Source: Mesorhizobium sp. B2-1-1 (GTDB taxonomy: Bacteria; Pseudomonadota; Alphaproteobacteria; Rhizobiales; Rhizobiaceae). Taken from it: a stretch of 64,000 nt of DNA. The position numbers were made by a program, and so were the translations under genes. Shown piece after piece: positions 28,646 through 51,609 of the stretch. The stretch covers positions 62,001 to 126,000 of the forward strand of contig NZ_CP083954.1 of the NCBI RefSeq assembly GCF_006442975.2, given 5' to 3'. Numbering within the stretch: the stretch's first letter is position 1; each line of letters starts with the position of its first letter. The notes beneath the pieces were generated by a model. It was not told where the DNA came from. It made no database searches and saw only the letters and a list, made by a program, of their open reading frames with translations.

Positions 28646-30229
28646 TCAGTGTGTCGGCCCGGCCCCCAGCGTCGCCACCGTCTTGAGGGCGCCGTCGAGC
28701 ATGTCGCCCTTCTCGTCCTTCAGCGCCGCCTCGCGCAGCCGCCTGATCCAGTCAGCGGCGTCGGCGCGCCCCTTGAGCAGGTCGAGCGCCGACAGCACGC
28801 GGTCGAACTTCGACTGGGCACGGACATGGGTGTCGCTGTAGCCCTTGATCAGCCGGCGGCAGTTCAGTATCTCGACGGCCAATGCATAGTCCTCACGCGC
28901 ATGGCCCAGCGCCAGCGCGTACCAGCTCTCCAGATGTGCGGCTTCCACCTTGTGGCGCAGCAGGCGGCGGCGCCAGCGGCGCAGGCCGCCGATGAACCAC
29001 AGAGCGGTGAAGCCGGCAAAACTATCGGTACGGATGCGTCGGCCGCGATTGATGCGACGGTCAAGGAAGGCGGCGAGCTTCGGCCGGTTCTCGATGTAGC
29101 TGCCCAGCCCCGCCGGCAGCGTGCCGCAGAACTCCTCGATGCGCGGATGGAAATACTCGGTCACCTGCAGGACCGAGCCATCCCTGACGCCGACCTCCTT
29201 GCGCACGCGCCTGTCGCGGGTCGAGCGCGTCTTCAGGTCGGCGACGCGGATCATGTCATCGTAGCATAGGGCGTTCGCCAGATGCTTGGCCGCGGCGATC
29301 GAGAGGGCATAGGCTCGATCAGGCCCGTCCAGCACGACGGCTTTGTCCAGGCGGTCGAGATATTCGCGTCCATAGGCAATGTCCTGATAGTCCACGACCT
29401 TTCGCAGACCGCGCAGCGCCATGTCGCGCACCGACACGGGCATTACGTCGACGCGGGCGGCCAGGGCCTGCCAGCCTCGCAGGAGGTCTTGCGGGCCACT
29501 CACCTGTCCAGCAGCCAGGGCGGAGCCGACGACAGCAGCTTCCGCCGGTTTTGGCGCAGCCGATGATGCCGTGCCGCGCGCGCGATCATAGGCGGCGCCG
29601 AAGGCAGCGAGGCTGGCCTTGACGCCGCGGCCACCGGCGCCGATCGCCTCCTGGTAGCTTTCGCGCGTGAACGGCAGGGCGCCGGAGCCCGCCAGCGCGC
29701 CAAGCAGACTGGCCGAGATCATCGAGCCGCTGTCGGCGGCGATCTTTTCCATGTCGAAAGCGATGAAGCGCTTCGATGCGGCTTCAGCCGTCGCGTGCAC
29801 CTTCGACGACGACGCCCTGCCGTCGCCGGGCTCGATCTTTTCCGACACGGCAGCGATGCGGTGCGACGAGGTGATCAACGTCGTGCGGTCGGGAGTGACA
29901 AAGCCGCGGATGATGGCGCGGCCGGCTTCCATCAGTTCGGCAGCGATCAAAATGTCGACGTCGCCTTGCGAGGGCGACAGCGCGAAGACCGGCAGGCGGC
30001 CGGTGTCACGGGCCATCTCGACATAGTAGATGGTGGCGCCGGTGCGCTGGGCGACGCCGGCCACCGAGGTCGATTGCGCGACGTAACCGTTGCGCTCCGC
30101 GACGTCGGTGATCCAGTCGGCAAGCACGCCGCCGCCCTGGCCGCCGACGGCGAGCACCGCAAGCTTGATAACGCGTTCGTCGTCGGCGGCGCCTGCCTTC
30201 GGGCGCAGTGAGGCGTTGTGATCAAGCAT
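28646..30229 (-). CDS. Indolepyruvate ferredoxin oxidoreductase beta-family subunit, extended
   Basis: A 527-residue protein. Residues about 20-210 form the pyruvate:ferredoxin oxidoreductase gamma-type domain (LAVLAVGGQGGGVLADWI, VAGVAQRTGATIYYVEMA). About 300 residues follow that classical IorB (about 200 residues) lacks, including RGLRKVVDYQDIAYGREYL and HLESWYALALGHAREDYALAV. The start overlaps the alpha-subunit stop by eight bases. With the alpha subunit it would oxidise aryl-2-oxoacids to arylacyl-CoA with reduction of ferredoxin. It is the last gene of the minus-strand aromatic operon. Confidence 0.82.
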   Translation of the reverse strand: MLDHNASLRPKAGAADDERVIKLAVLAVGGQGGGVLADWITDVAERNGYVAQSTSVAGVAQRTGATIYYVEMARDTGRLPVFALSPSQGDVDILIAAELMEAGRAIIRGFVTPDRTTLITSSHRIAAVSEKIEPGDGRASSSKVHATAEAASKRFIAFDMEKIAADSGSMISASLLGALAGSGALPFTRESYQEAIGAGGRGVKASLAAFGAAYDRARGTASSAAPKPAEAAVVGSALAAGQVSGPQDLLRGWQALAARVDVMPVSVRDMALRGLRKVVDYQDIAYGREYLDRLDKAVVLDGPDRAYALSIAAAKHLANALCYDDMIRVADLKTRSTRDRRVRKEVGVRDGSVLQVTEYFHPRIEEFCGTLPAGLGSYIENRPKLAAFLDRRINRGRRIRTDSFAGFTALWFIGGLRRWRRRLLRHKVEAAHLESWYALALGHAREDYALAVEILNCRRLIKGYSDTHVRAQSKFDRVLSALDLLKGRADAADWIRRLREAALKDEKGDMLDGALKTVATLGAGPTH

Positions 30230-32375
30230 CGGCGAACACCAGACGGCGGCCTTCGCGGCGACGCTGCAAAAGCCCGATGACCGCGCGCCGGGCGCTCTCG
30301 AGGAAGCGGTCCCAGCGGCTCGGATTGTGCACGACATCGGCGCGATAGAAGGACGGGCACAGCACCGCCGCATCGGCGACTTCGCCGCAATTGCCGCAGC
30401 CGACGCAGTTCTGATCGATGCTCGCGACAGGATCGTCGCGCAGCGGATCGTCGAGCGACTTCACCGACAGCGACGGGCAGCCGGACAGCCGCATGCAGGC
30501 GTGGTCGCCGGTGCAGATATCCTCGTCGACACCGAACTTCGGCTTGACGACGCGCGTCCCACCCTTGATCGCCTTGTCGACCAGGGGCTTTTCGCGGCGC
30601 TGGCGGTTGAGCATGCATTCCGACGAGGCGACGATGACTTTCGGGCCTTTCTCGTCCGTGGTCAGCGCCTCGCGCAGCGTGTCCTGCATCTTGCCGACGT
30701 CATAGGTGCGGTCGACATGGCGCAGCCACTTGACGCCCATGCCTTTCACGGCCTCGGTGATGGGATGCTTGGTCGACTTGGTCTTGTTGCCGGCGCGTGA
30801 CGACAGAATGTCCTGCCCTCCCGTCGCGGCCGAGTAGAAATTGTCGACAATGACGATGACGCCGTCGTTCTTGTTGAACACCGCATTGCCGATCGAGGAG
30901 GTCAGGCCATTGTGCCAGAAGCCGCCATCGCCGACGAAGGAGATCGAGCGGCGCTTGGCGTCGGGCGAATTGAAGGCCGAGGCCGAGGCCGGGCCGAGCC
31001 CGTAGCCCATTGTGGTGGCGCCGAGTTCGAAGGGCGGCATGATCGAGAACAGGTGGCAGCCGATGTCGGACGCGATGTGGTGCTTGCCGAGTTCCTGTTC
31101 GACCAGTTTTGTCGCGGCAAAGATCGGCCGCTCCGGGCAGCCGATGCAGAAACCGGGCGGTCGACCTGGAACGACATTGATCAGGTCCGCCGTGTCGACG
31201 CCGTCGCCGACCTTGTTGGGAGCCCGCACTTCGCCGGGCAGAAGATGCGGCGCCTCGGTGCGCAGGAAGGCGCCGATGCCGTCGAGCATGACCTGGCCGG
31301 TATATTCGCCGGCCATCGGCAGGTGCTCCTTGCCGACCAGGCGGGTGCCACGCCCGGCCTTGTGCAGCATGGCGGCAAAGGCCTGTTCGATGTAGTTGGG
31401 CTGGCCTTCCTCGACGACCAGCACCGCCTGCTTGCCTTCGCAGAAGGACAGAAACTCGTCGTCGATCAACGGATACACGGCATTGAGCACGTAGAGCGGC
31501 ACGTCGGTCTCGCCATAGGTGTCGGCAAGGCCGAGCCGCTGCAAAGCGCGGATGACGGAATTGTACATGCCGCCCTGCATGACGATGCCGACGGAGCCGT
31601 GATCGGAACCGAAGATCTCGTTGATCTTGCGGCTCTTGATGAAATCCACCGCCGCCGGCCAGCGCTTCGCGACCTTCTCCTTCTCGTGCAGGAAGGAAGC
31701 GGGCGGCAGCACGATGCGGCCGGTGTCGCGGCGGGGCGCCTCCAGCGCATCGGCCACCGTCATCGGCGGCCGCTTGTTGTCTTTGGCGGTGAAATGACCG
31801 TGGACATGGCAGCAGCGGATGCGCACCTGCAGCATGACAGGCGTGTTGGAGGCCTCGGACAACTCGAAGCCGTCTTCCACGGCCTTGACGATCGAGGGCA
31901 GGTTCGGGCGCGGGTCGAGCAGCCAGACCTGGCTCTTCATGGCGAAGGCATGGCTGCGCTCCTGCATGATCGAGGAGCCCTCGCCATAGTCCTCGCCGAC
32001 GATGATCAACGCACCGCCGGTGACGCCGCCGGAGGCGAGGTTGGCGAGCGCGTCGGAGGCGACGTTGGTGCCGACCGTCGACTTGAAGGTCGCCGCGCCG
32101 CGGATCGGATAATGCACCGAGGCCGCCAGCATGGCGGTGGCGGTGGCTTCCGAGGCGCTCGCCTCGAAATGCACGCCGAGTTCGCCCAGAATGTCCTGTG
32201 CGTCGGCCAGCACGTCCATGAGATGGCTGATCGGCGCACCCTGGTAGCCGCCGACATAGCCGACGCCGCATTGCAGCAGCGCCTTGGTGATGGCGAGGAT
32301 GCCTTCGCCGGCAAATTCCTCGCCCGCGCCGAGCCTCAGCTTTTCGACTTCCTTGGCAAAAGACCGTTCGGCCAT
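30222..32375 (-). CDS. Indolepyruvate ferredoxin oxidoreductase alpha-family subunit
   Basis: A 717-residue thiamine-diphosphate enzyme subunit. The N-terminal pyrimidine-binding domain (AITKALLQCGVGYVGGYQG), CIGCPERPIF and the TPP motif GDGGFWHNG with NAVFNKND near residues 480-505 are typical of IorA. The C-terminal ferredoxin-like part is unusual. One site is a regular CVGCGNC motif with a distal Cys near 670. The other is spread as CTGDHAC and a third Cys, so the first cluster may be altered. An AAGGAGG site precedes the ATG. Substrates could be indolepyruvate or related aryl oxoacids. Confidence 0.85.
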   Translation of the reverse strand: MAERSFAKEVEKLRLGAGEEFAGEGILAITKALLQCGVGYVGGYQGAPISHLMDVLADAQDILGELGVHFEASASEATATAMLAASVHYPIRGAATFKSTVGTNVASDALANLASGGVTGGALIIVGEDYGEGSSIMQERSHAFAMKSQVWLLDPRPNLPSIVKAVEDGFELSEASNTPVMLQVRIRCCHVHGHFTAKDNKRPPMTVADALEAPRRDTGRIVLPPASFLHEKEKVAKRWPAAVDFIKSRKINEIFGSDHGSVGIVMQGGMYNSVIRALQRLGLADTYGETDVPLYVLNAVYPLIDDEFLSFCEGKQAVLVVEEGQPNYIEQAFAAMLHKAGRGTRLVGKEHLPMAGEYTGQVMLDGIGAFLRTEAPHLLPGEVRAPNKVGDGVDTADLINVVPGRPPGFCIGCPERPIFAATKLVEQELGKHHIASDIGCHLFSIMPPFELGATTMGYGLGPASASAFNSPDAKRRSISFVGDGGFWHNGLTSSIGNAVFNKNDGVIVIVDNFYSAATGGQDILSSRAGNKTKSTKHPITEAVKGMGVKWLRHVDRTYDVGKMQDTLREALTTDEKGPKVIVASSECMLNRQRREKPLVDKAIKGGTRVVKPKFGVDEDICTGDHACMRLSGCPSLSVKSLDDPLRDDPVASIDQNCVGCGNCGEVADAAVLCPSFYRADVVHNPSRWDRFLESARRAVIGLLQRRREGRRLVFADA

Positions 32376-32420: not shown

Positions 32421-32902
32421 CTAGATGTCGTGCTTGCGAATGTTCTTCAGCATCTTTTGCAGCGTGGCGATCAGCGCTGCGTATTCGGCGTCGTCGACAT
32501 CGTCGAACATGGCCTCGAAAGCGTCATGCATGGCCGGCCAGGCGCGGGTGAACTCGGTGCGGCCTTCGTCGGTCAGGAACACATGGCGGATGCGACTGTC
32601 GCTAACCCCCTGCTCGCGCCGCACAAGCCCCTGCCCCTCAAGCGTGTCGAGCGTGCGGCTCAAGGTGGACTGCTCGATCACCGTGTAGACCGAGAGGTCG
32701 TTGACGGTGACGCCGTCGGTGACCGACAGCACCGCGAGCGCCCGCACCTGCGAAATGGTCAGGCCCTGCTTGCGGAAATCGTCGCGCAAGGTGGCGTTGT
32801 AGCGGCCCATGATGCGGTTCATCAGATAGGGCGCGAATTGCTGCAGGCCGATCTGACCCAAGGTCGATATGCGCTGGCGCTTTTCCGCGATTTTCTGCTC
32901 CA

Positions 32903-32906
<4 letters not shown>
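32421..32906 (-). CDS. MarR family transcriptional regulator (first copy)
   Basis: A 161-residue winged-helix regulator. The DNA-binding region reads LTISQVRALAVLSVTDG, then VYTVIEQSTLSRTLDTLEGQG (recognition helix near residues 70-90) and the wing DSRIRHVFLTDEG. Its start overlaps the stop of the upstream FAD-protein gene (ATGA). MarR proteins of aromatic clusters usually repress until an aromatic acid binds. This one is a candidate for the palindromes at 35645, 43285, 50760 and 51649. Confidence 0.9.
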
Positions 32907-34474
<1,568 letters not shown>

Positions 34475-34520: not shown

Positions 34521-34688
34521 TACGGCGCTCCCCTCTGTCCTGCCGGACATCTCCCCCTTTTGGGGGGAGATTGGCTGTCATCACCGCTTTCGCCAATCTC
34601 CCACGTTGCAGGAATGAGAGGGGCGCCGAAGCTGCCAATCTCCCCCCTTGAGGGGGAGATGTCCGGCAGGACAGAGGGGGGCGCCGTA
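34521..34688. repeat. Palindromic intergenic repeat, copy 1
   Basis: The element has long inverted ends: TACGGCGC and CCTCTGTCCTGCCGGACATC at the left match the right-hand GATGTCCGGCAGGACAGAGG and GCGCCGTA. Internal CTCCCCC/GGGGGAG blocks form smaller hairpins. The right half is almost identical to the element at 47725-47889. It lies between the cyclase and FAD-protein genes of one operon. It resembles the RIME-type mosaic repeats of rhizobia and has no coding capacity. Confidence 0.8.
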
Positions 34689-34764: not shown

Positions 34765-35556
34765 CTATTTGCCCGGCACCAGCGCCAGGGCGCGGATCGG
34801 GCTGCCGGTGCCGTGCTCGATCTTGAGCGGCGCGGCGATCAGGATGGCGCCCTTCGGCGGCAACTGGTCGAGGTTGCACAGGCTGGCCAGACCATAGCGG
34901 TTGGCCTTGTGCATCAGCGTGTGGGCCGGGAATGGCGGCTCCATGCCGCCGGCCTTGCCGGCATCGGTGCCGATCGTCTCCGAGCCCCAGCCCTTGATGT
35001 CCTTGCTGATCAGGAACTGGATTGCTTCCGCCGTCGGGCCGGGCGTGTGTGGGCCGGTCTCGTTGGCGTTGAGGAATTCGGCTTCCGAGCCGTTGCGCTT
35101 GTACCAGTCGGTGCGCATCACCACCCATTCGCCGGCGTTGATGGCGCCATGCTTGGCTTCCCACGCCTTGATGTGATCGACGGTGAGCAGGAAATCATGG
35201 TCTGCGGCGGCTTCCTTGGAGCAGTCGATGACATTGACCGGACCAATAAAGTTCTGCGCCGGAATGGTGTCGGTGGCGCCATCCGGATAATCCTTGCCGC
35301 TGATCCAGTGCTGCGGCGCGTCGAAATGCGTGCCCGAGTGTTCGCCGAGCTTCAGCCAGTTCCAGGCCCACCAGGGACCATTCTTGTCGTAACGGGAGAT
35401 GTTATGGATCTCGACCTTCGGCGTGTCGACGGCAAGTTCCGGCGGCAGCTTGATCAGCGGCGTGTCAGGACCGAGCGGCGCCGACAGGTCGACCACCTTG
35501 ATGGCGCCTGAAAGAAGCTGGCCGGCGACTTCGCCGAGGAGTTGTTGCGTATCCAT
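34765..35556 (-). CDS. Cyclase-family metal hydrolase, isatin hydrolase/kynurenine formamidase-like
   Basis: A 263-residue protein with the cyclase-family metal signature HSGTHFDAPQHW (about residues 71-82), a second region GPHTPGPTAEA and the ending NLDQLPPKGAIL. Family members hydrolyse the lactam of isatin or N-formylkynurenine, or act on other cyclic amides. Text such as GKDYPDGATDTIP and SETIGTDAGKAGG brings it nearest, from memory, to isatin hydrolases, which open isatin to isatinate on the way to anthranilate. This is inference. The start is the ATG of MDTQQLLGEV, which follows an AGAGGGAACAGAG stretch on this strand. Confidence 0.8.
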   Translation of the reverse strand: MDTQQLLGEVAGQLLSGAIKVVDLSAPLGPDTPLIKLPPELAVDTPKVEIHNISRYDKNGPWWAWNWLKLGEHSGTHFDAPQHWISGKDYPDGATDTIPAQNFIGPVNVIDCSKEAAADHDFLLTVDHIKAWEAKHGAINAGEWVVMRTDWYKRNGSEAEFLNANETGPHTPGPTAEAIQFLISKDIKGWGSETIGTDAGKAGGMEPPFPAHTLMHKANRYGLASLCNLDQLPPKGAILIAAPLKIEHGTGSPIRALALVPGK

Positions 35557-35644: not shown

Positions 35645-35658
35645 CTTTAAGCATAAAG
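35645..35658. promoter_or_regulatory. Putative MarR-type operator, site a
   Basis: CTTTAAGCATAAAG is a dyad with arms CTTTA and TAAAG around AGCA. It lies in the divergent gap between the cyclase gene and the second FAD-protein gene, 8 bases before the GTG start of the latter. The same layout recurs at 43285, 50760 and 51649. Confidence 0.55.
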
Positions 35659-35665
35659 GAAATGG

Positions 35666-37249
35666 GTGCGGGGCGTGAGCGAGTTCGACGCCATCTTTGT
35701 CGGGGCGGGCCACAACAGTCTGGCTTGCGCCGCGCATCTGGCGCTCAAAGGCTGGAAAACCGGGGTTTTTGAGCGCAGTGCAAATATCGGCGGCGCCGTC
35801 CAGACCCGCGAATTCACGCTGCCGGGTTTCCGACACGATTTCGGCGCGATGAATCTGAGCCTGTTCGCCGGCTCGGCCTTCCACCAGAAATATGCAAATG
35901 AATTGAAAGCCCACGGGCTGGAATTCGCGCCGGTTTCCGACTGTTTCGCCAGCGCCTTCCCGGACGGACGCTGGTTCGGCGTCAGCAACGATCTGGAAAA
36001 GACGGCCGCGCGCATGGCTGCCTTCTCCGCCGCCGATGCCGCCACGTGGCGCAAGCTGGTCGCCGCCTTCCCGGCGGAAGCAGAGCATCTGTTTCGCCTC
36101 TTGGGATCACCGATGAGCGCCCGCGCCCTTGCCGGCACGGCGTGGAACCTTTGGCGCAAGAAGGGCCTCGCCGGCGCGCTCGACACCGGGCGCCTGCTGC
36201 TTTCCTCGCCCCGCGCGTGGCTGGAGGAGACTTTCGAGTCGCCCCATGTGCGGGCGACGCTCGCCACCTGGGGCATGCATCTCGACTTTGCGCCCGACAT
36301 CGCAGGCGGTGCCGTGTTCCCTTATCTGGAATCCATGGCCAACCAGAGTTTCGGCATGGTGCTGGGCAAGGGCGGCGCCCACACCATCATTCGTGCCTTA
36401 TCGGGGATGGTCACGGGCGCCGGCGGCAAGATCTTCACCAACGCCGAGGTGGCCGAAATCACGGTTTCGGCCGGCAAGGCGACGGGTGTGCGGCTCAAGT
36501 CCGGTGAGACGCACACGGCCACCAGGGCGGTCATTGCCGGCGTTGCACCCAAGGCGTTGGCCGGCACGCTTTTGCCCAACGGTTCCGGCGACGCCGGCTT
36601 CGACACGGCGATGCAAAAATTCCGGCACGCGCCGGGCACCATGATGATCCATCTGGCGCTAGACGATCTGCCGGACTGGCGCGCCGGCGCCGAGTTGCGG
36701 CAGTTCGCCTATGTGCATCTGTCACCGTCGCTCGACGCCATGTCGCGCACCTATCAGCAGGCGATGGCGGGCGTGCTGCCGGACGAGCCGGTGCTGGTCC
36801 TCGGCCAACCAACCGCGGTCGATCCGTCGCGCGCGCCTCAAGGCAAGCATGTGCTGTGGGTGCAGGTGCGCATGCTGCCGGCAGAAATCCTTGGCGACGC
36901 CGCCGGCAAGATCACGCCCGCGCATTGGGATCAGGTCAAGGATCGCTATGCCGAGCGCGTGCTCGACATCGTCGAAACCTACGCGCCCGGCCTGCGAGCC
37001 AAGATCCTTGGCCAGGCCGTGTTCTCGCCCATCGACCTCGAGCGCGAGAACCCGAACCTCGTCGGCGGCGACCAGGTTTGTGGTAGCCACCACCTGGCAC
37101 AGAATTTCCTGTTTCGCCCGGCACGCGGCTACGCCGGTTGGAACACGCCTGTGGCCAATCTGCATCTCACCGGTGCCGCCACATGGCCGGGCGCCGGCAC
37201 GGGTGCCGCCTCGGGCTTCATGCTGGCGCAACAGCTTGGCGGGAGGTAG
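35666..37249 (+). CDS. CrtI/PYROXD2-like FAD-dependent oxidoreductase (second copy)
   Basis: A 527-residue homologue of the protein at 32903-34474, with FDAIFVGAGHNSLACAAHL, FERSANIGGAVQTRE and C-terminal GAATWPGAGTGAASGF. Both share NLVGGD near the C-terminus. The start is GTG with AAGGA about six bases upstream; a GTG three codons later is the alternative. It is divergent from the cyclase gene across a probable shared operator. Two related desaturase-like proteins could act as partners or in successive steps. The substrate is unknown. Confidence 0.85.
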   Translation: MRGVSEFDAIFVGAGHNSLACAAHLALKGWKTGVFERSANIGGAVQTREFTLPGFRHDFGAMNLSLFAGSAFHQKYANELKAHGLEFAPVSDCFASAFPDGRWFGVSNDLEKTAARMAAFSAADAATWRKLVAAFPAEAEHLFRLLGSPMSARALAGTAWNLWRKKGLAGALDTGRLLLSSPRAWLEETFESPHVRATLATWGMHLDFAPDIAGGAVFPYLESMANQSFGMVLGKGGAHTIIRALSGMVTGAGGKIFTNAEVAEITVSAGKATGVRLKSGETHTATRAVIAGVAPKALAGTLLPNGSGDAGFDTAMQKFRHAPGTMMIHLALDDLPDWRAGAELRQFAYVHLSPSLDAMSRTYQQAMAGVLPDEPVLVLGQPTAVDPSRAPQGKHVLWVQVRMLPAEILGDAAGKITPAHWDQVKDRYAERVLDIVETYAPGLRAKILGQAVFSPIDLERENPNLVGGDQVCGSHHLAQNFLFRPARGYAGWNTPVANLHLTGAATWPGAGTGAASGFMLAQQLGGR

Positions 37250-41703: not shown

Positions 41704-42532
41704 GCCGCTGTTTTCCGTGCGCGGTCTGAAAGTCGCGCTGCCCGACATGACCCGCAAGCCGCTGATCGGCCGCGCGCCGCTGGCGGAAATCCTAAAAGGC
41801 CTGGACTTCGACCTGCCCAAGGGATCGGTGACCGGCATCGTCGGCGAGTCCGGATCCGGCAAGTCGACGCTCGGCCGTGCCCTGGTACGACTGCTGGAGC
41901 CCAGCGCCGGCAGCATCAGCTTCGACGGCATAGACATCACACATCTGCCAGAGGCGGAGTTGCGGCCGCTGCGCCGCGATCTGCAGATGATCTTCCAGGA
42001 TCCTATGTCGTCGCTCAACCCGCGCCGCACCATTGCCAGCATCATTGCCGCGCCGCTGAAGCAGAACGGGCTTGGCGACAATCTCAGGGACCGCGTGGCC
42101 GAGGCCTTGCAGCGCGTCGGCCTGCCGCAGAGCTTCGCCGGCCGCTACCGCCACGAACTGTCGGGCGGCCAGCGCCAGCGCGTCGGCATAGCGCGCGCGC
42201 TGGCGCTGGCGCCGAAATTCGTGCTGGCCGACGAGATCGTCTCCGGCCTCGACGTCTCGACGCAGGCGCAGATCCTCACCCTTCTGGAGAAACTGGCGGA
42301 GGAGATGGGGCTGACGGTCGCCTTGATCAGCCACGATCTGTCGGTCATCCGGCGGCTGTGCCGGCAGGTCATCGTCATGCGCGAAGGCAGGATCGTCGAA
42401 GCGAGCGCGACGGACGCTCTCTTCGAAAATCCCCGACAGACCTACACGCGCGACCTGATCGCGGCCATCCCACTGCCCGAAATCGACGACGGCTGGCTGG
42501 ATATTCCTTCCGCTGCCAAGGCTCCGACATGA
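41696..42532 (+). CDS. ABC transporter ATP-binding protein, DppF type
   Basis: A 278-residue ATPase with Walker A GESGSGKS near residue 46, the Q-loop DPMSSLNPRRT, the signature LSGGQRQRV and Walker B LADEIVSGLDVS. EIVS replaces the more usual EPTS, keeping the catalytic Glu. It ends the importer operon. Its stop overlaps an ATG (42529) of a frame that continues into the VOC gene, so translation may be linked. Confidence 0.92.
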   Translation: MAEPLFSVRGLKVALPDMTRKPLIGRAPLAEILKGLDFDLPKGSVTGIVGESGSGKSTLGRALVRLLEPSAGSISFDGIDITHLPEAELRPLRRDLQMIFQDPMSSLNPRRTIASIIAAPLKQNGLGDNLRDRVAEALQRVGLPQSFAGRYRHELSGGQRQRVGIARALALAPKFVLADEIVSGLDVSTQAQILTLLEKLAEEMGLTVALISHDLSVIRRLCRQVIVMREGRIVEASATDALFENPRQTYTRDLIAAIPLPEIDDGWLDIPSAAKAPT

Positions 42533-42612: not shown

Positions 42613-43212
42613 ATGAAGACAACAATTCGAAATGCAGCACTCGCTGCCGCCATCCTCGGCAGCACCGGTGTGGCGGCAGCAAGCTCGATCCCCGGCATGC
42701 GCGGGCACGACCACACCGGCATCACGGTTCCCGACATGAAGCAGGCGGTCGATTTCTTCACCGACGTGGTCGGCTGCAAGAAGGCAATGTCGTTCGGCCC
42801 GTTCGCCGACGACAAGGGCACCTTCATGCAGGATCTTCTCGGCGTCGATCCGAAGGCTGTCATCGAGCAGGTCACCATGGTTCGCTGCGGCACGGGGTCG
42901 AACATAGAGCTGTTCAAATACACCGCGCCGGACCAGAAGGACCTGACACCGAAGAACAGCGACATTGGCGGTTTTCACATCGCCTTCTATGTCGACGACG
43001 TCGCGGCGGCGAAAGCCTATCTCGAGGCCAAGGGCGTAAAGACCAGGTTGGGGCCGCTGCCGGTCAAGGAAGGACCCGCCGCCGGCCAGACCATCCTTTA
43101 CTTCCAGGCGCCTTGGGGCTTGCAGCTGGAAGCGATCAGCTATCCCGACGGCATGGCTTACGAGAAGGGTGCCGAGACGGTGCTGTGGAGCCCGAAGAAC
43201 CCGGAAAAGTGA
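42613..43212 (+). CDS. VOC (glyoxalase/dioxygenase fold) protein with predicted signal peptide
   Basis: A 199-residue protein. The start ATG has AGGAGA seven bases upstream and opens a Sec signal peptide, AALAAAILGSTGVAAASS. The rest is a VOC domain pair: HDHTGITVPDMKQAVDFFTD (about residues 31-50) and FHIAFYVDDVAAAKAYLEAKG (about 119-139), with His at both metal positions and Glu in LQLEAI. VOC enzymes are metal-dependent isomerases, lyases or dioxygenases, normally cytoplasmic, so export is unusual. An in-frame ATG 28 codons upstream overlaps the previous stop and would hide the signal. The substrate is unknown. Confidence 0.8.
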   Translation: MKTTIRNAALAAAILGSTGVAAASSIPGMRGHDHTGITVPDMKQAVDFFTDVVGCKKAMSFGPFADDKGTFMQDLLGVDPKAVIEQVTMVRCGTGSNIELFKYTAPDQKDLTPKNSDIGGFHIAFYVDDVAAAKAYLEAKGVKTRLGPLPVKEGPAAGQTILYFQAPWGLQLEAISYPDGMAYEKGAETVLWSPKNPEK

Positions 43213-43284: not shown

Positions 43285-43298
43285 CTTTAAGCTTGAAA
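43285..43298. promoter_or_regulatory. Putative MarR-type operator, site b
   Basis: CTTTAAGCTTGAAA is a near-perfect dyad centred on AAGCTT, about 55 bases upstream of the monooxygenase/reductase start. It matches sites a, c and d. Confidence 0.6.
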
Positions 43299-43353: not shown

Positions 43354-45648
43354 ATGAAGGTTGCGGTTCTCGGCGGCGGACCAGCCGGCCTTTACTTCGC
43401 CATTTCGATGAAGCTGAGGGACGCCGCGCACGATGTGACGGTTTTCGAGCGTAATCGCGCCGACGACACGTTCGGCTGGGGCGTCGTTCTGTCAGCCGAA
43501 ACGCTTGAGAATCTGGCCAGGAACGATCCGGTCAGCGCCGTCTGGATCAAGAAGCATTTTGCGTATTGGGACGACATCGCCGTGGTCCATGACGGCGTGC
43601 GCACTGTATCCTCAGGCCACGGCTTCTGCGGCATCGGCCGCAAGCGGCTCTTGATCCTGTTACAACGGCGCGCACGCGAGCTCGGCGTCAAGCTGATGTT
43701 CGAGACCGACATCGCCGATCCCAAGCCCTATATGGAGACGCATGACCTGGTCGTCGCCGCAGACGGACTGAACTCCAGGGCGCGCAACAGCTTCGTCGAC
43801 ATCTTCAAGCCCGACATCGACACGCGCAAATGCAAGTTCGTGTGGCTCGGCACCCATCAGAAATTCGACGACGCTTTCACCTTCATCTTCGAAAAGACCG
43901 AGCATGGCTGGGTGTGGGCGCACGCCTACCAGTTCGACAGCGACACCGCGACCTTCATCGTCGAGTGCAGCGAACAGACCTGGGCCGCCTTCGGCTTCGG
44001 CGCCATGACGCAGCAGGAATCCATCGCCGTCTGCGAGCGCATCTTCGAAAAGCATCTTGGCGGCCACAAGCTGATGACCAATGCCAACCACATCAGGGGT
44101 TCGGCCTGGATCAATTTCCCGCGCGTGCTGTGCGAGCGCTGGTCGTTCGAGAACCTGGCGCTGATGGGCGACGCGGCGGCATCGGCGCATTTCTCGATCG
44201 GCTCCGGCACCAAGCTGGCGCTGGAAAGCGCTGTCGCGCTGGCCGAGTATGTCGAAACCGAACCGGACCTAAAGGCCGCATTCCGTAAATATGAGGATGC
44301 GCGCCGCACCGAGGTGCTGAAGCTGCAGTCGGCGGCGCGCAATTCGCTCGAATGGTTCGAGGAGGTCGAGCGCTATCTTGGCCTCGATCCGGTGCAGTTC
44401 AACTATTCGCTGCTGACCCGCTCGCAGCGCATCAGCCACGAAAACCTGCGGCTGCGCGACGCGGAGTGGCTTGAAAGCGCGGAGGAATGGTTCCAGCGCC
44501 AGGCGGGCGCCGGCGCCAACAGGCTGCGCCGCGCGCCGATGTTCGCGCCCTTCAAGCTGCGCGACATGCGGCTCAGCAACCGCGTGGTCGTCTCGCCGAT
44601 GGCGCAGTACAAGGCCGTCGACGGCTGCCCGACGGACTGGCATTTCACGCACTATGCCGAGCGTGCCAAGGGCGGCGCCGGGCTCATCTATATCGAGATG
44701 ACCTGCGTCAGCCCCGAAGGGCGGATCACGCCCGGCTGCCCGGGCTTCTATGCGCCCGAACATGAGGCGGCGTGGAAACGGCTGGTCGATTTCGTCCATA
44801 CCGAGACCGAGGCGAAGATCTGCGCACAGATCGGCCATTCCGGCGCCAAGGGTTCGACCCAGGTTGGGTGGGAAGGCACGGACGTGCCGCTCGCCTCGGG
44901 TAACTGGCCAGTCATGGCGGCATCGGCGGTCGCTTGGTCGCCGCAGAATCAGGTGCCGAAGACCATGGATCGCGCCGACATGGACAGAGTGCGCGACGAG
45001 TTCGTGGCTTCGGCTGAGATGGCCGACCGCTGCGGCTTCGACATGCTCGAGATCCACGCCGCGCACGGCTATCTCCTGTCGTCCTTCATCACGCCGGTCA
45101 CCAACCGGCGCACGGATGCGTATGGCGGTTCGCTGGAAAACCGCATGCGATATCCCCTTGAAATCTTTCGCGCCGTACGCGCCGCCTGGCCGGCGCAGAA
45201 GCCGATCTCAATGCGCATTTCGGCCAATGACTGGGTCGGCATCGAAGGCGTAACACCCGCCGACGCCGTCGAGATCGCGCGGCTGTTGCATGAGGCCGGC
45301 GTCGACATTTGCGACGTCTCGGCAGGACAAACTTCGGTGCTGGCAAAGCCGGTCTATGGCCGCATGTTCCAGACGCCGTTTTCCGACCGCATCCGCAACG
45401 AGGTCGGCATGGCGACGATGGCGGTCGGCAACATCTATGAGCCGGACCATGTCAATTCGATCCTGATGGCCGGCCGCGCCGACCTGGTGGCGCTGGCACG
45501 GCCGCATCTTGCCGATCCCTACTGGACGCTGCATGCGGCGGTGGCGCTCGGCGACCGTGGCGTGAAATGGCCGGATCCTTATCTGCCGGGGCGCGACCAG
45601 ATCTACCGACTGGCCGAACGCGACGCCGCAGCGGGGCTGAAAGTATGA
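43354..45648 (+). CDS. Anthraniloyl-CoA (or salicylyl-CoA) monooxygenase fused to old-yellow-enzyme reductase
   Basis: A 764-residue fusion. Residues 1 to about 385 form a flavin monooxygenase of the aromatic hydroxylase class: [12 protein letters not shown] at the N-terminus, and [18 protein letters not shown], the second FAD motif, near 270-287. Residues from about 396 form an old-yellow-enzyme domain: [19 protein letters not shown], the HAAH pair near 567-570 and [13 protein letters not shown]. This is the architecture of 2-aminobenzoyl-CoA monooxygenase/reductase of Azoarcus, which hydroxylates and then dearomatises anthraniloyl-CoA. Annotated relatives are also called salicylyl-CoA 5-hydroxylase. 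It heads an operon of beta-oxidation-type genes. Confidence 0.88.
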
Positions 45649-46418
45649 CGGCCGCCGCGATGATCGCCGGCAGCCATGCCCTTGTCACCGGCGGCGGGTC
45701 TGGTGTCGGCCGAGCGATCGCTCTGGCGCTGGCTGGTGCCGGCATCGACGTCACCATATGCGGCCGCCGCGAGGCGGAGCTGGCCAAGGTGGCTGGCGAA
45801 AGCAAAGGCGTTTTCGCCATCACTGCCGATGTCACCAATGAGGCGGCGATGGCATCGCTTTACGAGACGGCGGAGGCCGCGCGCGGGCCGTTCGACATCG
45901 TCGTCGCCAATGCCGGCATGGCGGGCAGCACGCCGGCGCACAAGACCACGCTGGCCGACTGGCAGCGGACGCTGGACGTCAACCTGACCGGCGCTTTCCT
46001 GACGGTGAAGCCGGCGCTCGCCGGCATGGCCGCGCGCAAGGCGGGCCGCATCGTCTTCATCGCGTCTACCGCCGGACTGAAAGGCTACGCCTATGTCGCG
46101 CCTTACGTGGCGGCCAAGCATGGCGTCGTCGGCCTGATGCGGGCGCTGGCTGCCGAGACGGCGAAATCCGGCGTGACCGTCAATGCGGTGTGCCCGGGGT
46201 TTGTCGAGACGGACATGTTGGACGAGTCCATCGAGCGGATCGTTGAAAAAACCGGCCGTTCGACTGAACAGGCGCGGGCGAGCCTTGCCGCGACCAATCC
46301 ACAAGGCCGCTTCATCCAGCCGCAGGAAATTGCCGCCGCCGTGCTGTGGCTGTGCGGCGATGCGGCGGCGTCGATCACCGGACAGGCAATTTCGATCTCA
46401 GGAGGCGAAACATGGTAG
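45645..46418 (+). CDS. Short-chain dehydrogenase/reductase
   Basis: A 257-residue classical SDR: cofactor motif [12 protein letters not shown] near residues 15-26, NAGMAG near 90, catalytic Ser in FIASTAGL, and Tyr-x3-Lys in PYVAAKHG. The start overlaps the preceding stop (ATGA). In this operon it is the likely 3-hydroxyacyl-CoA dehydrogenase of the lower pathway, a role inferred from context. Confidence 0.9.
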
Positions 46419-46882
46419 CCGGCCCCCTGCCCGCGCCGTCGGGACCCGGCAAGGACCGCTTGCGGCTGTGGATCAGGCTGCTGCGCGCCTCGCGCACGAT
46501 CGAGGCCGAACTGCGCGAGCGGCTGAAGAAGGAATTCAACACGACGTTGCCGCGCTTCGACGTGATGGCCGCGCTCTACCGAGCGCCCGAAGGCATGCTG
46601 ATGAGCGATCTGTCGCGCTTCCTGCTGGTATCCAACGGCAATGTCACGGGCATCGTAGATCGGCTCGTATCCGAGGGGTTGGTCGCGCGCGCCCGCCGCA
46701 ATGGCGACCGCCGCACCTCGATGGTGCGGCTGACGGATGAGGGCTCGAAGTCCTTCGCAGTCATCGCTGCCGCTCACGAGGGCTGGGTCGGCGAATTGCT
46801 GGGCAAGGTGAGCGAGGACGACGCGCGCCGGCTGACCGGCATGCTGACCTCGTTCCGCAGCAACTGGGAGGGACGCGAATGA
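46412..46882 (+). CDS. MarR family transcriptional regulator (second copy)
   Basis: A 156-residue winged-helix regulator with [19 protein letters not shown], the recognition region [18 protein letters not shown] and the wing [16 protein letters not shown]. It starts inside the end of the SDR gene, after a clear AGGAGG, and its stop overlaps the enoyl-CoA hydratase start. Sitting inside the operon suggests autoregulation. It is the second candidate for the shared palindromic operator, and its ligand may be an aryl-CoA. Confidence 0.9.
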
Positions 46883-47691
46883 GCAAGATGGCCGGCTTCA
46901 AGCCGAAGCATTTCCTCTGGCAGGTCGAAGGCCGGATCGCCAAGGTCCGGCTCGACCGGCCGAAGCGCAAGAACCCGCTGACCTTCGACAGCTATGCGGA
47001 ACTGCGCGATACATTCCGCGACCTCGTCTATGCCGACGATGTCGATGCCGTGGTGTTCCTGTCCAATGGCGGGAATTTCTGCTCCGGCGGCGATGTCCAC
47101 GATATTATCGGCCCGCTGGTCAAGATGGACATGAAGCAGCTCCTGGCCTTCACCCGCATGACCGGCGACTTCGTCAAGGCGATGCTGAACTGCGGCAAGC
47201 CGATCATCGCGGCGGTCGACGGTGTGGCGGTCGGCGCCGGCGCCATCATCGCCATGAGCTCCGACATCCGCATCGCCACGCCGGACGCCAAGACGGCATT
47301 CCTGTTCACCCGCGTCGGTCTTGCCGGCTGCGACATGGGAGCCTGCGCGATCCTGCCGCGCATCATCGGCCACGGCCGCGCCGCCGAACTGCTCTACACC
47401 GGCCGCAACATGACGGCTGCCGAAGGCGAGCGCTGGGGGTTCTACAACAGGTTGGTCGATGCCGCATCGCTCGAGGCCGACGCGCTCGACATGGCGGCGA
47501 GCATCGTCTCCGGCCCGACCTTCGCCCACGGCATTACCAAGACGCAGTTGAACCAGGAATGGTCGATGGGCCTTGACCAGGCGATCGAGGCGGAAGCTCA
47601 GGCGCAAGCGATCTGCATGCAGACGCGCGATTTCGAGCGGGCGTACAAGGCGTTCGTTGCCAAGGAAAAGCCGGTGTTCGAGGGGAATTGA
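46879..47691 (+). CDS. Enoyl-CoA hydratase/isomerase family protein
   Basis: A 270-residue crotonase-fold protein. The first oxyanion-hole segment is [14 protein letters not shown] (about residues 57-70), and the second lies in [16 protein letters not shown] near 149-164. The two Glu residues used by hydratases are not both evident (CDMG occupies this region), so it may act on an unusual CoA ester, for example in ring cleavage. It is coupled to the MarR gene by ATGA and precedes a palindromic repeat. Confidence 0.88.
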
Positions 47692-47724: not shown

Positions 47725-47889
47725 AGCGCCCCCCTCTGGCCTGCCGGCCATCTCCCCCTCTAGGGGGGAGATTGGCAGCTTCGGCGGCGGCAGCCATCCT
47801 GCGGCGCAGGCGATTCGCGAAAGCCGAGATGAGGATCGATCTCCCCCTTAGAGGGGGAGATGTCCGGCAGGACAGAGGGGGGCGCCGTA
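47725..47889. repeat. Palindromic intergenic repeat, copy 2
   Basis: This is the second copy of the element at 34521-34688. The right arm, from GGGGGAGATGTCCGGCAGGA to GGCGCCGTA, is nearly identical. The left arm, CCCCTCTGGCCTGCCGGCCA and following CTCCCCC, has diverged. Internal inverted CTCCCCC/GGGGGAG blocks are kept. It sits between the enoyl-CoA hydratase and acyl-CoA dehydrogenase genes. Hairpins could reduce read-through inside the operon. Confidence 0.8.
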
Positions 47890-47922: not shown

Positions 47923-49071
47923 ATGCCTGACCGCTCCTTCCTCGACTGGCCCTTCTTCGAAGACCGTCATCGCGAACTGGCCGGGCACCTCGAGGCATGG
48001 TGCGCGAAGAACCTGCCCGTCGATCACCATGACGTCGACACTGCCTGCCGCGAGCTGGTGCAAAAACTCGGCCGGGACGGCTGGCTCAAGCCGACGGCGC
48101 TCGACACCGACAATCCGGGACCGCTCGACGTGCGCACCTTGTGCATCACGCGTGAGACGCTGGCGCGGCATGACGGGCTCGCCGATTTCGCCTTCGCCAT
48201 GCAAGGGCTCGGCACCGGAGCGCTCAGCCTGTTCGGCACGCCGGAACAACAGCAATGGCTTTCGAAGACGCGCGCCGGCAAGGTCATTTCCGCCTTTGCG
48301 CTGTCGGAACCGCGCTCGGGATCGGATGTCGCCAATATGGAGATGACAGCGACCCGCGATGGTGACGGCTATGTCCTGTCGGGCGAAAAGACCTGGATCT
48401 CCAATGGCGGCATCGCCGATCTCTATGTCGTCTTTGCCCGCACAGGCGAGGCACCCGCCGCCAAGGGGCTATCAGCCTTCATCGTGCCCGGGGACAGCAA
48501 GGGCCTCGGCATCGCGGAGCGCCTGGAAGTCATAGCGCCGCATCCGCTGGCACGACTGTCTTTCGATCAGGTCCGCCTGCCCGCCTCGGCGCTGATCGGC
48601 AAACCGGGCGACGGCTTTCGCATCGCCATGTCGGTGCTCGACGTGTTCCGCTCGACCGTCGGCGCGGCGGCACTCGGCTTTGCTCGCCGCGCACTCGATG
48701 AAAGCATCAAGCGGGTGGCCGAACGCAAGCTGTTCGGCGCGCCGATGGCCGAGCTGCAGATGGTGCAGGGCCATATCGCCGACATGGCGCTCGACGTCGA
48801 TGCCGCGGCGCTTTTGGTCTACCGCGCCGCCTGGACCAAGGACATGGGCGCGGCGCGGGTAACGCGCGAGGCGGCGATGGCCAAACTGTTCGCCACCGAC
48901 AAGGCGCAGGAGGTGATCGACAAAGCGGTGCAACTGCATGGCGGCGACGGCGTCCGCAAGGGTCACATCGTCGAAAGCCTGTATCGCGAGATCCGCGCGC
49001 TGCGCATCTATGAGGGTGCTTCCGACGTGCAGAAGGTGGTGATCGCGCGACAGGTGATGGGGGCGGCCTGA
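47923..49071 (+). CDS. Acyl-CoA dehydrogenase family protein
   Basis: A 382-residue flavoprotein: [18 protein letters not shown] and [13 protein letters not shown] are the two FAD/substrate signatures (about residues 122-170), and the C-terminal YEGASDVQK (near 365) supplies the catalytic Glu. It would oxidise an acyl-CoA intermediate of the ring-derived chain or act as a cyclohexanoyl-type dehydrogenase. GCGGAGG lies 6 bases before the ATG. Confidence 0.9.
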
Positions 49072-49128: not shown

Positions 49129-49524
49129 ATGCACGAGATCCTACAGCCGGATGGCTGGGCCAAGCCAGTCGGTTACGCCAATGGCGTAGCGGCTCGCGGG
49201 CGGCTTGTCTTCGTCGGCGGACAGGTCGGCTGGAATGGGCAGTGCCAGTTCGAGACCGACGATTTCGTCGGACAGGTGCGGCAGACGCTTCAAAATATCG
49301 TCGCGGTGCTGGCGGAGGCCGGAGCTGAGCCGCGGCACATCACGTCGATGACGTGGTATTTCACCGATAAGAGCGAATATCTGGCCAATCTCAGGGGTAT
49401 AGGCGAGGCCTATCGCAAGGTGATCGGCCGGCATTTCCCGGCGATGGCCGCGATGCAGGTGATGGCACTGGTCGAGGACCGAGCCAAGGTGGAGATCCAG
49501 GCCACCGCGGTTATTCCGGAATAA
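49129..49524 (+). CDS. RidA family enamine/imine deaminase
   Basis: A 131-residue YjgF/YER057c/UK114 protein (VFVGGQVGWNGQ, EAGAEPRHITSMTWYFTD). RidA proteins hydrolyse reactive enamines and imines, releasing ammonia. The usual Arg of the active site is not plain in the last segment (VEDRAKVEIQATAVIPE). It follows the acyl-CoA dehydrogenase by 57 bases. Since anthraniloyl-CoA reduction would leave an amino-ene, a deaminating role here is attractive but inferred. Confidence 0.87.
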   Translation: MHEILQPDGWAKPVGYANGVAARGRLVFVGGQVGWNGQCQFETDDFVGQVRQTLQNIVAVLAEAGAEPRHITSMTWYFTDKSEYLANLRGIGEAYRKVIGRHFPAMAAMQVMALVEDRAKVEIQATAVIPE

Positions 49525-49615: not shown

Positions 49616-50710
49616 CTATTCTCCGCGAAGGCCGGCCTGCTCCAGCAGCGGCAGCACGTGATCGCAGAAATAGGGGAGTTCCTGCGTGTAGTTGACGAAG
49701 GACAGCGCAATGCCCTGGTAGCCATGCCCGGCAATGGCGGCCATAGCGGCGGCGATCGTTTCGGGCGTTCCGACCAAGGGATAGGTGCCGGCGCCGCCGG
49801 CGAAACGCTGGCGATAGCGGTCATAGGCATACGGGTCGTGCGACCGCGAGAATTCCTTTTTGCCGGCCATATGGGCATCGACCGCCTCACGGTCGGCCAG
49901 ATCGACGGCATAGCGTGTGTAATAGGCCTGCGCCTCCTCCATCGTCGGCCGGCAGACGACATGCGCCACGGTGTAGACGCCGACCTCGCGGCCAGCCTTG
50001 CCGGCCCGCTCACTGATATCGGCGACATGTTTGCCGGCATCGGCCATCTCGGAAAAGGTCGTGAACAGATAGTCACATCTGGCGGCAGCGAAATCGCGGC
50101 CCGGACCGCCGAAAGCCGCGTTCATCGTCACCGGTCGCGGAACTTGCAGGCTGGCCGGCCGGCTCACGGCTTCCTTGAGACGATAATAAGTGCCCTCATA
50201 GTCGAGAGGTTCAGCCGACGCATAAAGCCTTTCCAAAATTTCGATCCATTCGGCGGCCTGATCATACCCCTTCTCGACCAGCGGCGTGCCGAACATGCCG
50301 AATTCCTTCGGGTTCCAGCCGCAGACGATGTTGAGGCCGGCACGGCCCTGGCTGATATGATCGACCGTCGCCAGCGCCTTGGCGGCGTAGAGCGGATGCA
50401 CGAGCGGCACATGCACGGTCATGAACAGCCCGATCTGCTCGGTGGCCACACTGAGCGCCGCCGCCCAGGTGAAGGTCTCGAACGACCATTCGCGCACCCT
50501 GTTGCGGCCGCCAAAGCCGCGCCAGCGCGCGATCGGCAGCAGGAATTCCAGCCCCGCCCGGTCGGCGATCTGCGCCGCCGTCAGATTATCCTGCCAGCTT
50601 GCCGTCCAGCGTTCAGGCACATCCGATATGGCAAGGCCGCCATCGGCATTGGTCGAGAAGACGCCGAGCTTCAGTCTGTTTGGGCCGTGCAGGGGATGCG
50701 CTTTGATCAT
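49616..50710 (-). CDS. LLM-class flavin-dependent monooxygenase
   Basis: A 364-residue luciferase-like enzyme of the RutA/SsuD/DmoA group, using reduced flavin and oxygen. Family features are LLPIARWRGFGGRNRVREWS, LATVDHISQGRAGLNIVCGW and NAAFGGPGRDFAA. Members open rings or remove sulfonates and amines. The closest resemblance I can judge is RutA, which opens uracil. It is divergent from the aldolase gene across operator site c, so it probably belongs to the same regulon. A separate flavin reductase was not seen. Confidence 0.85.
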   Translation of the reverse strand: MIKAHPLHGPNRLKLGVFSTNADGGLAISDVPERWTASWQDNLTAAQIADRAGLEFLLPIARWRGFGGRNRVREWSFETFTWAAALSVATEQIGLFMTVHVPLVHPLYAAKALATVDHISQGRAGLNIVCGWNPKEFGMFGTPLVEKGYDQAAEWIEILERLYASAEPLDYEGTYYRLKEAVSRPASLQVPRPVTMNAAFGGPGRDFAAARCDYLFTTFSEMADAGKHVADISERAGKAGREVGVYTVAHVVCRPTMEEAQAYYTRYAVDLADREAVDAHMAGKKEFSRSHDPYAYDRYRQRFAGGAGTYPLVGTPETIAAAMAAIAGHGYQGIALSFVNYTQELPYFCDHVLPLLEQAGLRGE

Positions 50711-50759: not shown

Positions 50760-50773
50760 TTTCAAGCCTGAAA
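50760..50773. promoter_or_regulatory. Putative MarR-type operator, site c
   Basis: TTTCAAGCCTGAAA has perfect arms TTTCA and TGAAA around AGCC. It lies 50 bases upstream of the flavin monooxygenase start and 63 bases upstream of the aldolase start, so it can serve both divergent genes. Confidence 0.6.
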
Positions 50774-50835: not shown

Positions 50836-51609
50836 ATGAGCGGGTTTCGCCACAAATGCATCGGCAGGGAAAGCCTCGTCGGTTCCTTTGCCGCCATTCC
50901 GCATCCCGTTGCGGTTGAGGTGATGGCGCAGTCCGGTCTCGATTTTCTCTGCATCGATTGGGAACATGCCCAGATTTCGCGCGACATGATCGAGGCGATG
51001 GTGCGCGCGGCCGACATCCATCGCGTGCCGGCCATGGTGCGCGTGCCCGGCCATGCACCGGAAGCGATCGCCGCGGCATTGGACAGCGGCGCGCAAGGCG
51101 TGCTCGTCCCGCGCGTCTCGACCGCCGCCCAGGCGCAGGCGGCGGTGAAGGCCTCGCGTTATCCGCCGACCGGCGAGCGCGGCGTCGGGCCCGGACGGGC
51201 CGCCGGCTATGGCTACCGCATCTCCGAATATCTCGCTCAGGCCAATGACAGCATCGTCGTGGCGGTTCAGGTCGAGACATCGGAAGGGCCGGCCAATATC
51301 GAGGCAATCGCCGCCGTCGAGGGCGTCGACGTGATTTTCGTCGGGCCCGGCGATCTCTCCGTATCGATCGATGCGATCGGCCTCAAAGGCGCCGACAAGC
51401 TCGCGCAAGCGATCCGCAGGATCATCGATGCGACAATCGCGCATGGCAGGACATCCGGGATCTTCTGCGCGAAGCCGCAAGATGTCGCCCGATGGGCAGC
51501 ACTCGGCGCCAGTTTCTTCATCCTGGCCAGCGACACGATGCTTCTGGGGGCTGGCGCTGCTGCCGGCAAAGCCCGCGCGGATGCCGAACTGGGCAGGAGC
51601 GGCCGCTAG
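50836..51609 (+). CDS. HpcH/HpaI family aldolase
   Basis: A 257-residue class-II pyruvate aldolase fold: DFLCIDWEHAQ (about residues 36-46), the catalytic Arg region in VRVPG, and the metal-binding Glu/Asp in VQVETSEG and GPGDLS. Such enzymes split 2-oxo-hydroxy acids to pyruvate and an aldehyde or succinate semialdehyde at the end of aromatic pathways. The first catalytic region and GSFAAIP at the start match. It is divergent from the flavin monooxygenase. Confidence 0.9.
   Translation: MSGFRHKCIGRESLVGSFAAIPHPVAVEVMAQSGLDFLCIDWEHAQISRDMIEAMVRAADIHRVPAMVRVPGHAPEAIAAALDSGAQGVLVPRVSTAAQAQAAVKASRYPPTGERGVGPGRAAGYGYRISEYLAQANDSIVVAVQVETSEGPANIEAIAAVEGVDVIFVGPGDLSVSIDAIGLKGADKLAQAIRRIIDATIAHGRTSGIFCAKPQDVARWAALGASFFILASDTMLLGAGAAAGKARADAELGRSGR

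Follow-up and report, generated by a model that had tools for sequence, protein, structure and literature searches.

The stretch analysed here (the window) comprises 64,000 nucleotides, i.e. positions 62001-126000 of contig C1 in the 6.18 Mb genome of Mesorhizobium sp. B2-1-1. At 28646-51609 it carries an island of 13 enzyme genes, two MarR genes and a five-gene Opp-type importer. The enzymes are IorB, IorA, CrtI1, IsaH, CrtI2, VOC, a protein of the 2-aminobenzoyl-CoA monooxygenase/reductase type (ACMR), SDR, enoyl-CoA hydratase (ECH), acyl-CoA dehydrogenase (ACAD), RidA, a luciferase-like monooxygenase (LLM) and an HpcH aldolase. IorB, IorA, MarR1, CrtI1 and IsaH lie on the minus strand. Divergent from them the plus strand runs in the order CrtI2, SBP5-OppBCDF, VOC, ACMR-SDR-MarR2-ECH-ACAD-RidA, followed by LLM (minus) and the HpcH-type aldolase. 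We propose that the island serves isatin catabolism and that IorA and IorB together (IorAB) may turn isatinate directly into 2-aminobenzoyl-CoA. An earlier note on the same DNA had counted fourteen enzyme genes where we find 13; the MarR genes, the importer and the gene order that it gave are borne out by profile matches. The features are as follows.

28646..30229, minus: IorB, 2-oxoacid oxidoreductase subunit with DUF6537, 527 amino acids, putative isatinate oxidoreductase subunit (PF01558 + PF20169; NF006179 709 bits, cut-off 348)
30222..32375, minus: IorA, thiamine pyrophosphate (TPP) subunit with a C-terminal Cys-rich ferredoxin-like part, 717 amino acids (PF02775; Fer4_10 below its cut-off; TIGR03336 275 of 651 bits)
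32421..32906, minus: MarR1 (PF12802; PDB 3cjn E 2e-43, 7kym 2e-21)
32903..34474, minus: CrtI1, FAD amine-oxidase/phytoene-desaturase-like, candidate isatin-forming dehydrogenase (PF01593; crtI_fam below cut-off; with indole monooxygenase and IsaH in locus L101)
34765..35556, minus: IsaH, isatin hydrolase by sequence (PDB 4j0n E 1.3e-128 over residues 2-261; PF04199)
35645..35658, no strand: operator-like site CTTTAAGCATAAAG in the IsaH/CrtI2 divergent promoter (looser form before 20/20 IsaH genes of at least 85% identity)
35666..37249, plus: CrtI2, second CrtI-like flavoprotein (crtI_fam 147 bits, below cut-off)
37362..38891, plus: SBP5, Opp/Dpp-type solute-binding protein (PDB relatives are dipeptide-binding proteins and agrocinopine AccA)
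38980..39987, plus: OppB permease (PF00528, PF19300)
39980..40828, plus: OppC permease (PF00528)
40825..41703, plus: OppD ATPase (PF00005, PF08352)
41696..42532, plus: OppF ATPase (PF00005)
42613..43212, plus: exported VOC-family protein (PF00903/PF13669; signal-like N-terminus)
43285..43298, no strand: operator-like site CTTTAAGCTTGAAA before ACMR
43354..45648, plus: ACMR, NCBI name salicylyl-CoA 5-hydroxylase/oxidoreductase (NF006101 1266 bits, cut-off 1078; PF01494 + PF00724)
45645..46418, plus: SDR dehydrogenase (PF00106)
46412..46882, plus: MarR2, putative regulator of the operator-like sites (PF12802; same gene in ligase-type ACMR operons bearing the same site)
46879..47691, plus: enoyl-CoA hydratase (NF006107 477 bits, cut-off 330)
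47923..49071, plus: acyl-CoA dehydrogenase (PF00441)
49129..49524, plus: RidA, predicted enamine deaminase (PF01042)
49616..50710, minus: LLM, luciferase-like FMN monooxygenase, SfnG/RutA-like, possible accessory member (PF00296)
50760..50773, no strand: operator-like site TTTCAAGCCTGAAA in the LLM/HpcH divergent promoter
50836..51609, plus: HpcH/HpaI-type aldolase, membership uncertain (PF03328)
51649..51662, no strand: operator-like site TTTTAAGCTTAAAA, downstream of HpcH and 387 bp ahead of the next plus-strand gene

The cyclase IsaH matches isatin hydrolase B (4j0n) at the E-value listed above and isatin hydrolase A at 1e-93, whereas kynurenine formamidases follow at 4e-7 or weaker, and the arylformamidase profile TIGR03035 gives 36 of 223 bits. 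As far as sequence can tell, the assignment to the isatin hydrolases is strong, and closer than that to kynurenine formamidase, in agreement with the earlier note. The same holds for ACMR, which was correctly described there as a 2-aminobenzoyl-CoA-type monooxygenase/reductase: it exceeds the cut-off of NF006101 and has the fused monooxygenase/OYE arrangement. The two CrtI-like flavoproteins and the exported VOC protein listed in that note are also present. Export of the latter was judged by eye from a signal-peptide-like N-terminus, which recurs in 20 of the 21 relatives with a readable N-terminus (the exception is L211, and 7 of the 28 rows are cut or blank).

IorAB requires a more careful reading. 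The TPP domain PF02775 and the POR domain PF01558 place the pair in the 2-oxoacid:ferredoxin oxidoreductase superfamily, in which a 2-oxoacid and CoA give an acyl-CoA and CO2; isatinate is an aryl 2-oxoacid. The name indolepyruvate oxidoreductase (IOR), used in the earlier note, does not fit, as IorA reaches 275 bits against the curated IOR alpha profile TIGR03336, whose cut-off is 651. A separate IOR-like open frame of 1187 amino acids is found elsewhere in the genome. In the tree described below M. loti DSM 2626 has the nearest named IorA (97%). The AlphaFold model of IorA is of low confidence, with a pLDDT of 66 (43 sequences). The Foldseek ranking by E-value is led by acetolactate synthases with TM about 0.2, and among the 50 rows listed of 1138 the top TM per target was 0.64 for OorA and 0.62 for PFOR. 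The predicted fold agrees with the 2-oxoacid oxidoreductase family and is silent on the substrate. A plasmid of Variovorax boronicumulans (L109) carries a 58% IorA relative. Its neighbours there are a mandelate racemase (E 7e-138) and, near (S)-mandelate dehydrogenase 6bfg in sequence (5e-89), a hydroxyacid oxidase, for which a lactate oxidase entry scores higher over several stretches. The product of this oxidase would, by homology, be benzoylformate. The same plasmid locus also has a branched-chain-type importer, and a route from mandelate to benzoyl-CoA is possible there.

The left and right halves of the island are found together, as the earlier note had proposed to check. In 37 genomes of the genus (our own and 36 others), with IorA and ACMR matches counted at E <= 1e-250, both genes are present in 30, ACMR alone in two (G006, G013), neither in five and IorA alone in none. 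Among the 30 genomes with both genes, 28 have them on a single contig at a distance of 6.5-11.2 kb; the two remaining genomes are assemblies of about 630 and 940 contigs (G007 and G014), where the genes are on separate contigs. G005 (same genus, ACMR 52%) and G046, which belongs to another family, carry the set in other orders, LLM and HpcH being absent from it. In an even sample of 289 genomes of the class (thresholds IorA E <= 1e-100, ACMR E <= 1e-180, IsaH E <= 1e-60) IorA was found in 42, ACMR in 52 and both in 31 (Fisher P 7e-19, kinship ignored). On this genomic evidence the two halves belong together.

A similar association is seen between IsaH and IorAB. In the class sample all nine IsaH genomes have IorA, as opposed to 42 of 289 overall (hypergeometric 1e-8, kinship ignored), and eight of the nine have ACMR. 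The named IsaH loci studied were the best 80 of at least 592, a non-random choice ranked by likeness to an Alloyangia sequence. Within 10 kb of IsaH these contain MarR1 in 77 cases, IorA (counted at 60% identity or more) in 71, CrtI1 in 63, CrtI2 in 61, SBP5 in 54, VOC in 20, an indole monooxygenase in six and a Rieske IadD-like protein in one. LLM (at least 38% identity) is near IsaH in 10 and HpcH in three. Full flanks of 20 kb or more are available for 62 of the 80 loci: 57 of these have IorA, 12 consist of a core with IorA but no CrtI, and CrtI2 is present in all 44 that have SBP5. The core is compact in Sulfitobacter indolifex, where IsaH, MarR, IorA and IorB follow each other with gaps of 51, 9 and 2 bp. 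IsaH, IorAB and ACMR share one locus in Caballeronia sp. SBC1, Alloyangia and the actinobacterium Tsukamurella, and in G262 IsaH-IorA-IorB adjoin the ACMR operon in a locus that also has a Rieske oxygenase, a ligase, a thiolase and an SDR. In Azospirillum thermophilum IorAB and ACMR are in the same locus and IsaH is some 16 kb away.

A tree of IorA was built by a quick method from 120 matches, reduced to 107 rows plus the window after removal of identical rows and of Mesorhizobium near-copies above 93%. A branch with SH-aLRT 100 splits the tree into sides of 83 and 25 rows. The larger side takes in every one of the 73 rows whose locus contains IsaH, and no row of the smaller side has IsaH in its stretch. 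The split is favoured by the sampling, since many of the 73 rows were fetched on account of IsaH. The IorA proteins of the iad-type loci L067, L095, L098 and L102 are on the window's side. In L052, L060 and L063, IorAB of this isatin-linked side stand beside TRAP transporters, with IsaH absent from the stretch, so another 2-oxoacid substrate is likely for these pairs.

The operator-like pattern YTTYAAGCNTRAAR is a consensus of four window sites (35645, 43285, 50760 and 51649). No match was found in 100 shuffles of the window, though the consensus was derived from these very sites. Seven places fit the pattern in the whole genome; the reversed-pattern control gave one forward and one reverse match. 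Of the three places beyond the window one lies 70 bp before the start codon of a ligase gene discussed below, and the other two are inside predicted coding frames. In 4.09 Mb of fetched loci, a set chosen around the tracked genes and with overlaps kept, 85 of 99 places are followed by a tracked gene at a distance of no more than 350 bp. The site precedes 45 of 97 ACMR, 22 of 102 IsaH and 4 of 37 ligase genes. In G046 it lies between SBP5 and IorA. In Phyllobacterium and Paracoccus, whose ACMR operons are of the ligase type, the site again stands before ACMR. The only MarR gene annotated in these stretches is inside the ACMR operon, hence MarR2 is the likely reader of the sites. MarR1, whose nearest PDB entry is 3cjn followed by 7kym (a B. 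japonicum MarR studied with iad loci), is a less likely reader, as the site stands before ACMR in L103 and L105, where the one listed MarR sits in the ACMR operon. The idea that the sites are old in the left half is rejected, since the looser motif stands before IsaH in all 20 close relatives but in 3 of 80 others.

The source of isatin is suggested by the flavoproteins. CrtI1 and CrtI2 reach 109 and 147 bits against the curated crtI_fam profile (cut-off 238), and so fall short of the curated score for phytoene desaturases. In A. thermophilum (L101) an SDR, an indole monooxygenase, a flavin reductase, a transporter, CrtI1 (70%) and IsaH are codirectional with short gaps. In the iif pathway, according to the part of PMC6221969 used, the first three of these enzyme kinds (indole monooxygenase, flavin reductase, SDR) yield 3-hydroxyindolin-2-one. 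Because of this gene run and this product CrtI1 is a candidate for the step from 3-hydroxyindolin-2-one to isatin, and the two CrtI-like flavoproteins probably make isatin. At E 1e-40 an indole monooxygenase was found in two of the 61 genomes searched (G005 and G046) and not in our own, so the substrate here would be something other than indole, imported by SBP5; indole itself is unsupported as the imported compound. SBP5 resembles dipeptide- and agrocinopine-binding proteins, and indole-acyl amino acids as its cargo would be a guess. We note that on plasmid pML2037 of Mesorhizobium loti NZP2037 (L100) CrtI2, the Opp importer, VOC and CrtI1 are encoded next to proteins that bind 2Fe-2S or FAD and resemble molybdenum hydroxylase subunits; at the thresholds used, the plasmid does not appear in the listed records for IorA or IsaH.

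Taken in order, the proposed pathway would run as follows. The Opp-type system may import an indolic compound, which CrtI2 and then CrtI1 could oxidise to isatin. IsaH would open isatin to isatinate (2-aminobenzoylformate). IorAB, as a putative aryl-glyoxylate oxidoreductase rather than an indolepyruvate enzyme, would convert isatinate and CoA by oxidative decarboxylation to 2-aminobenzoyl-CoA. ACMR would hydroxylate and reduce the ring, and RidA may strip the amino group from the resulting enamine. SDR, enoyl-CoA hydratase and acyl-CoA dehydrogenase could complete the beta-oxidation-like steps, by analogy with the Azoarcus evansii pathway as outlined in the part of a review that we used (PMC4539516). 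MarR2, probably sensing a pathway intermediate, would bind CTTTAAGC-type sites and may thereby join both halves, and a distant operon of the ligase with tryptophan 2,3-dioxygenase (TDO) for kynurenine-derived anthranilate, in one regulon. The step that we regard as central, i.e. the direct formation of 2-aminobenzoyl-CoA from isatinate by IorAB within an isatin-centred island, by-passing free anthranilate, is the reading we lean towards on balance. Of the indole/anthranilate cluster with importer and regulators described in the earlier note, indole/isatin-type catabolism stands (IsaH match, ACMR, co-conserved halves). The main flow probably does not pass through anthranilate, as IorAB adjoins IsaH and the ligase-TDO locus lies apart.

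Several observations weigh against this reading, and many of them bear on the alternative that some other step makes free anthranilate from isatinate, that a distant ligase supplies 2-aminobenzoyl-CoA to ACMR and that IorAB acts on another aryl 2-oxoacid. A 2-aminobenzoate-CoA ligase, a feature of abm operons, is absent from the cluster, but our genome has an ortholog, an anthranilate-CoA-ligase-like gene 81% identical to the Phyllobacterium one and 3.5 Mb along the contig, preceded by the operator-like site mentioned above; anthranilate could therefore be activated without IorAB. Such a ligase and IorAB are combined in G005, L261, Alloyangia (L099) and Tsukamurella (L097), two loci pair IorAB with TDO and kynureninase, and iad bacteria are reported to form anthranilate. 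In the part of PMC12633357 used, the Variovorax segment iadC-K2 still yields anthranilate without iadAB. Of the nine class-sample genomes with IsaH, only four (G000, G061, G214, G262; our own included) carry it on the same contig as IorA. The two genes are on different contigs in G125, G245, G247, G339 and G341, and the three of these whose IorA is in the tree have it on the side that lacks IsaH-linked rows. A mere 25 of the 80 named loci have ACMR at 10 kb or less from IsaH, and ACMR lies elsewhere in G061 and G214. Ten rows of the isatin-linked side have no IsaH in their stretch, some being beside TRAP transporters or hydantoinase-like genes, though one of them (L056) has IsaH on the neighbouring stretch L055. 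Nevertheless, the ligase of our genome is in an apparent operon with TDO beside kynureninase, so that its presence is explained without isatin, and in small loci such as L093 it is IorAB, not the ligase, that is co-operonic with IsaH. We consider the free-anthranilate alternative unlikely. The ligase would be a kynurenine-branch enzyme, the isatin and kynurenine branches meeting at 2-aminobenzoyl-CoA. An AMP-forming ligase is part of the ACMR operons of Phyllobacterium and Paracoccus and of 26 out of 30 beta-oxidation-type ACMR operons without IorA or IsaH in the stretch (two of the four lacking it are on short contigs), vs two of seven IorAB-linked lineages. This is a trend only: the lineages were assigned by hand, the beta-oxidation type alone was compared, leaving out L097 and L099, IorAB was counted only within the stretch, and IorA does occur outside it in some of those 30 genomes. 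The idea that the ligase was lost since IorAB replaced it is weakened by the ortholog in our own genome and by the ligases beside IorAB in the four cases named above. As a separate observation, L071 and L074 hold hydantoinase A/B, IorAB, TDO, kynureninase and the ACMR operon together with no ligase in the stretch; the hydantoinase might open a lactam ring in place of isatin hydrolase.

The left half could alternatively be an indolepyruvate or arylpyruvate oxidoreductase locus that merely adjoins an anthranilate operon, as the database names and the IorAB loci without IsaH would suggest. We regard this as improbable, given that the curated IOR alpha cut-off is missed by far, that the genome has the separate 1187-residue IOR-like frame, that IorA is linked to IsaH, that operator-like sites occur in both halves and that the halves are retained together in 30 of 37 genomes. 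The chance that the locus serves the degradation of the auxin indole-3-acetate in the manner of iad is smaller still, in our view very slight. IorAB and IsaH homologues do belong to iad-type loci and MarR1 resembles 7kym, but the cluster has no ligase or thiolase, its importer is from a different family and an IadD-like protein was seen in a single one of the 80 named IsaH loci. For our own genome we reject this reading, as no match to the Rieske beta subunit family PF00866 was found in it (the alpha subunit was not searched for).

In summary, the island is real and conserved and is probably co-regulated. It brings known families together in a new combination, and one of its enzyme steps is probably undescribed. 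A wider claim is put forward tentatively, with slightly less than even confidence: IorAB would be an undescribed isatinate (2-aminobenzoylformate):ferredoxin oxidoreductase (CoA-acylating), serving an anthranilate-free route in rhizobia, roseobacters, the Burkholderia group and some actinobacteria and supplying the missing function of iadA/iadB, and CrtI1 would be a new, isatin-forming kind of 3-hydroxyindolin-2-one dehydrogenase. The literature basis consists of parts of PMC9613470, PMC12633357, PMC11630574, PMC6117287, PMC12538310, PMC4539516 and PMC6221969. Among the papers listed in searches of open-access literature, with most subscription papers outside the search, none proposes in its title or the beginning of its abstract that IorAB converts isatinate to 2-aminobenzoyl-CoA, and within these listings the earlier statement that the complete set is not a described pathway holds. 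A 2018 review, in the part used, counts the status of isatin as a true intermediate in indole degradation among the open questions and remarks that the iif cluster is without a gene that makes or uses it (PMC6221969). The present locus family offers genes for making (CrtI1) and for consuming (IsaH, IorAB) isatin. If the proposal is true, iadA and iadB gain a role and the ATP of the ligase step is saved; moreover, indole-type breakdown in plant-associated bacteria becomes linked to a testable regulon.

Some neighbouring features may also be mentioned. An amino-acid-type ABC importer (SBP_bac_3 and permease) is found at 52049-53679, 387 bp past the fourth operator-like site, and might share the regulon. 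A second dipeptide-type ABC transporter set (DppF-, DppD- and DppC-like) is on the minus strand at 55242-57888. Palindromic intergenic elements rich in CTCCCCC/GGGGGAG were seen by eye at about 34540-34760, in the gap between CrtI1 and IsaH, and again at about 47840-47870, ahead of the acyl-CoA dehydrogenase.

Among the known systems, phenylglyoxylate oxidoreductases resemble IorAB in the chemistry proposed here, i.e. an arylglyoxylate and CoA giving an aroyl-CoA, and differ in their subunit make-up. The aerobic 2-aminobenzoyl-CoA pathway of Azoarcus evansii shares ACMR and the beta-oxidation enzymes with the island. Anthranilate is activated by a CoA ligase in that pathway, whereas the window cluster lacks a ligase and IorAB would be the source of the thioester. 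The iif/ind indole cluster has its counterpart in certain relatives, where indole monooxygenase, flavin reductase and SDR are near CrtI1 and IsaH; the window genome has no such arrangement. The iif cluster differs in that, in the part of PMC6221969 used, anthranilate arises from 3-hydroxyindolin-2-one via a cofactor-independent oxygenase, with no isatin gene. The iad locus of auxin degradation in Variovorax, Achromobacter and Bradyrhizobium has these features in common with the island: the IorA/IorB homologues iadA/iadB, without a role assigned in the parts of that literature used, a protein similar to isatin hydrolase and kynurenine formamidase, a MarR repressor, and isatin and isatinate as intermediates. 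In contrast to it, the window genome is without an IadE-type beta subunit and the cluster without ligase and thiolase; instead, the window has two CrtI-like flavoproteins and an Opp importer, with the ACMR operon attached.

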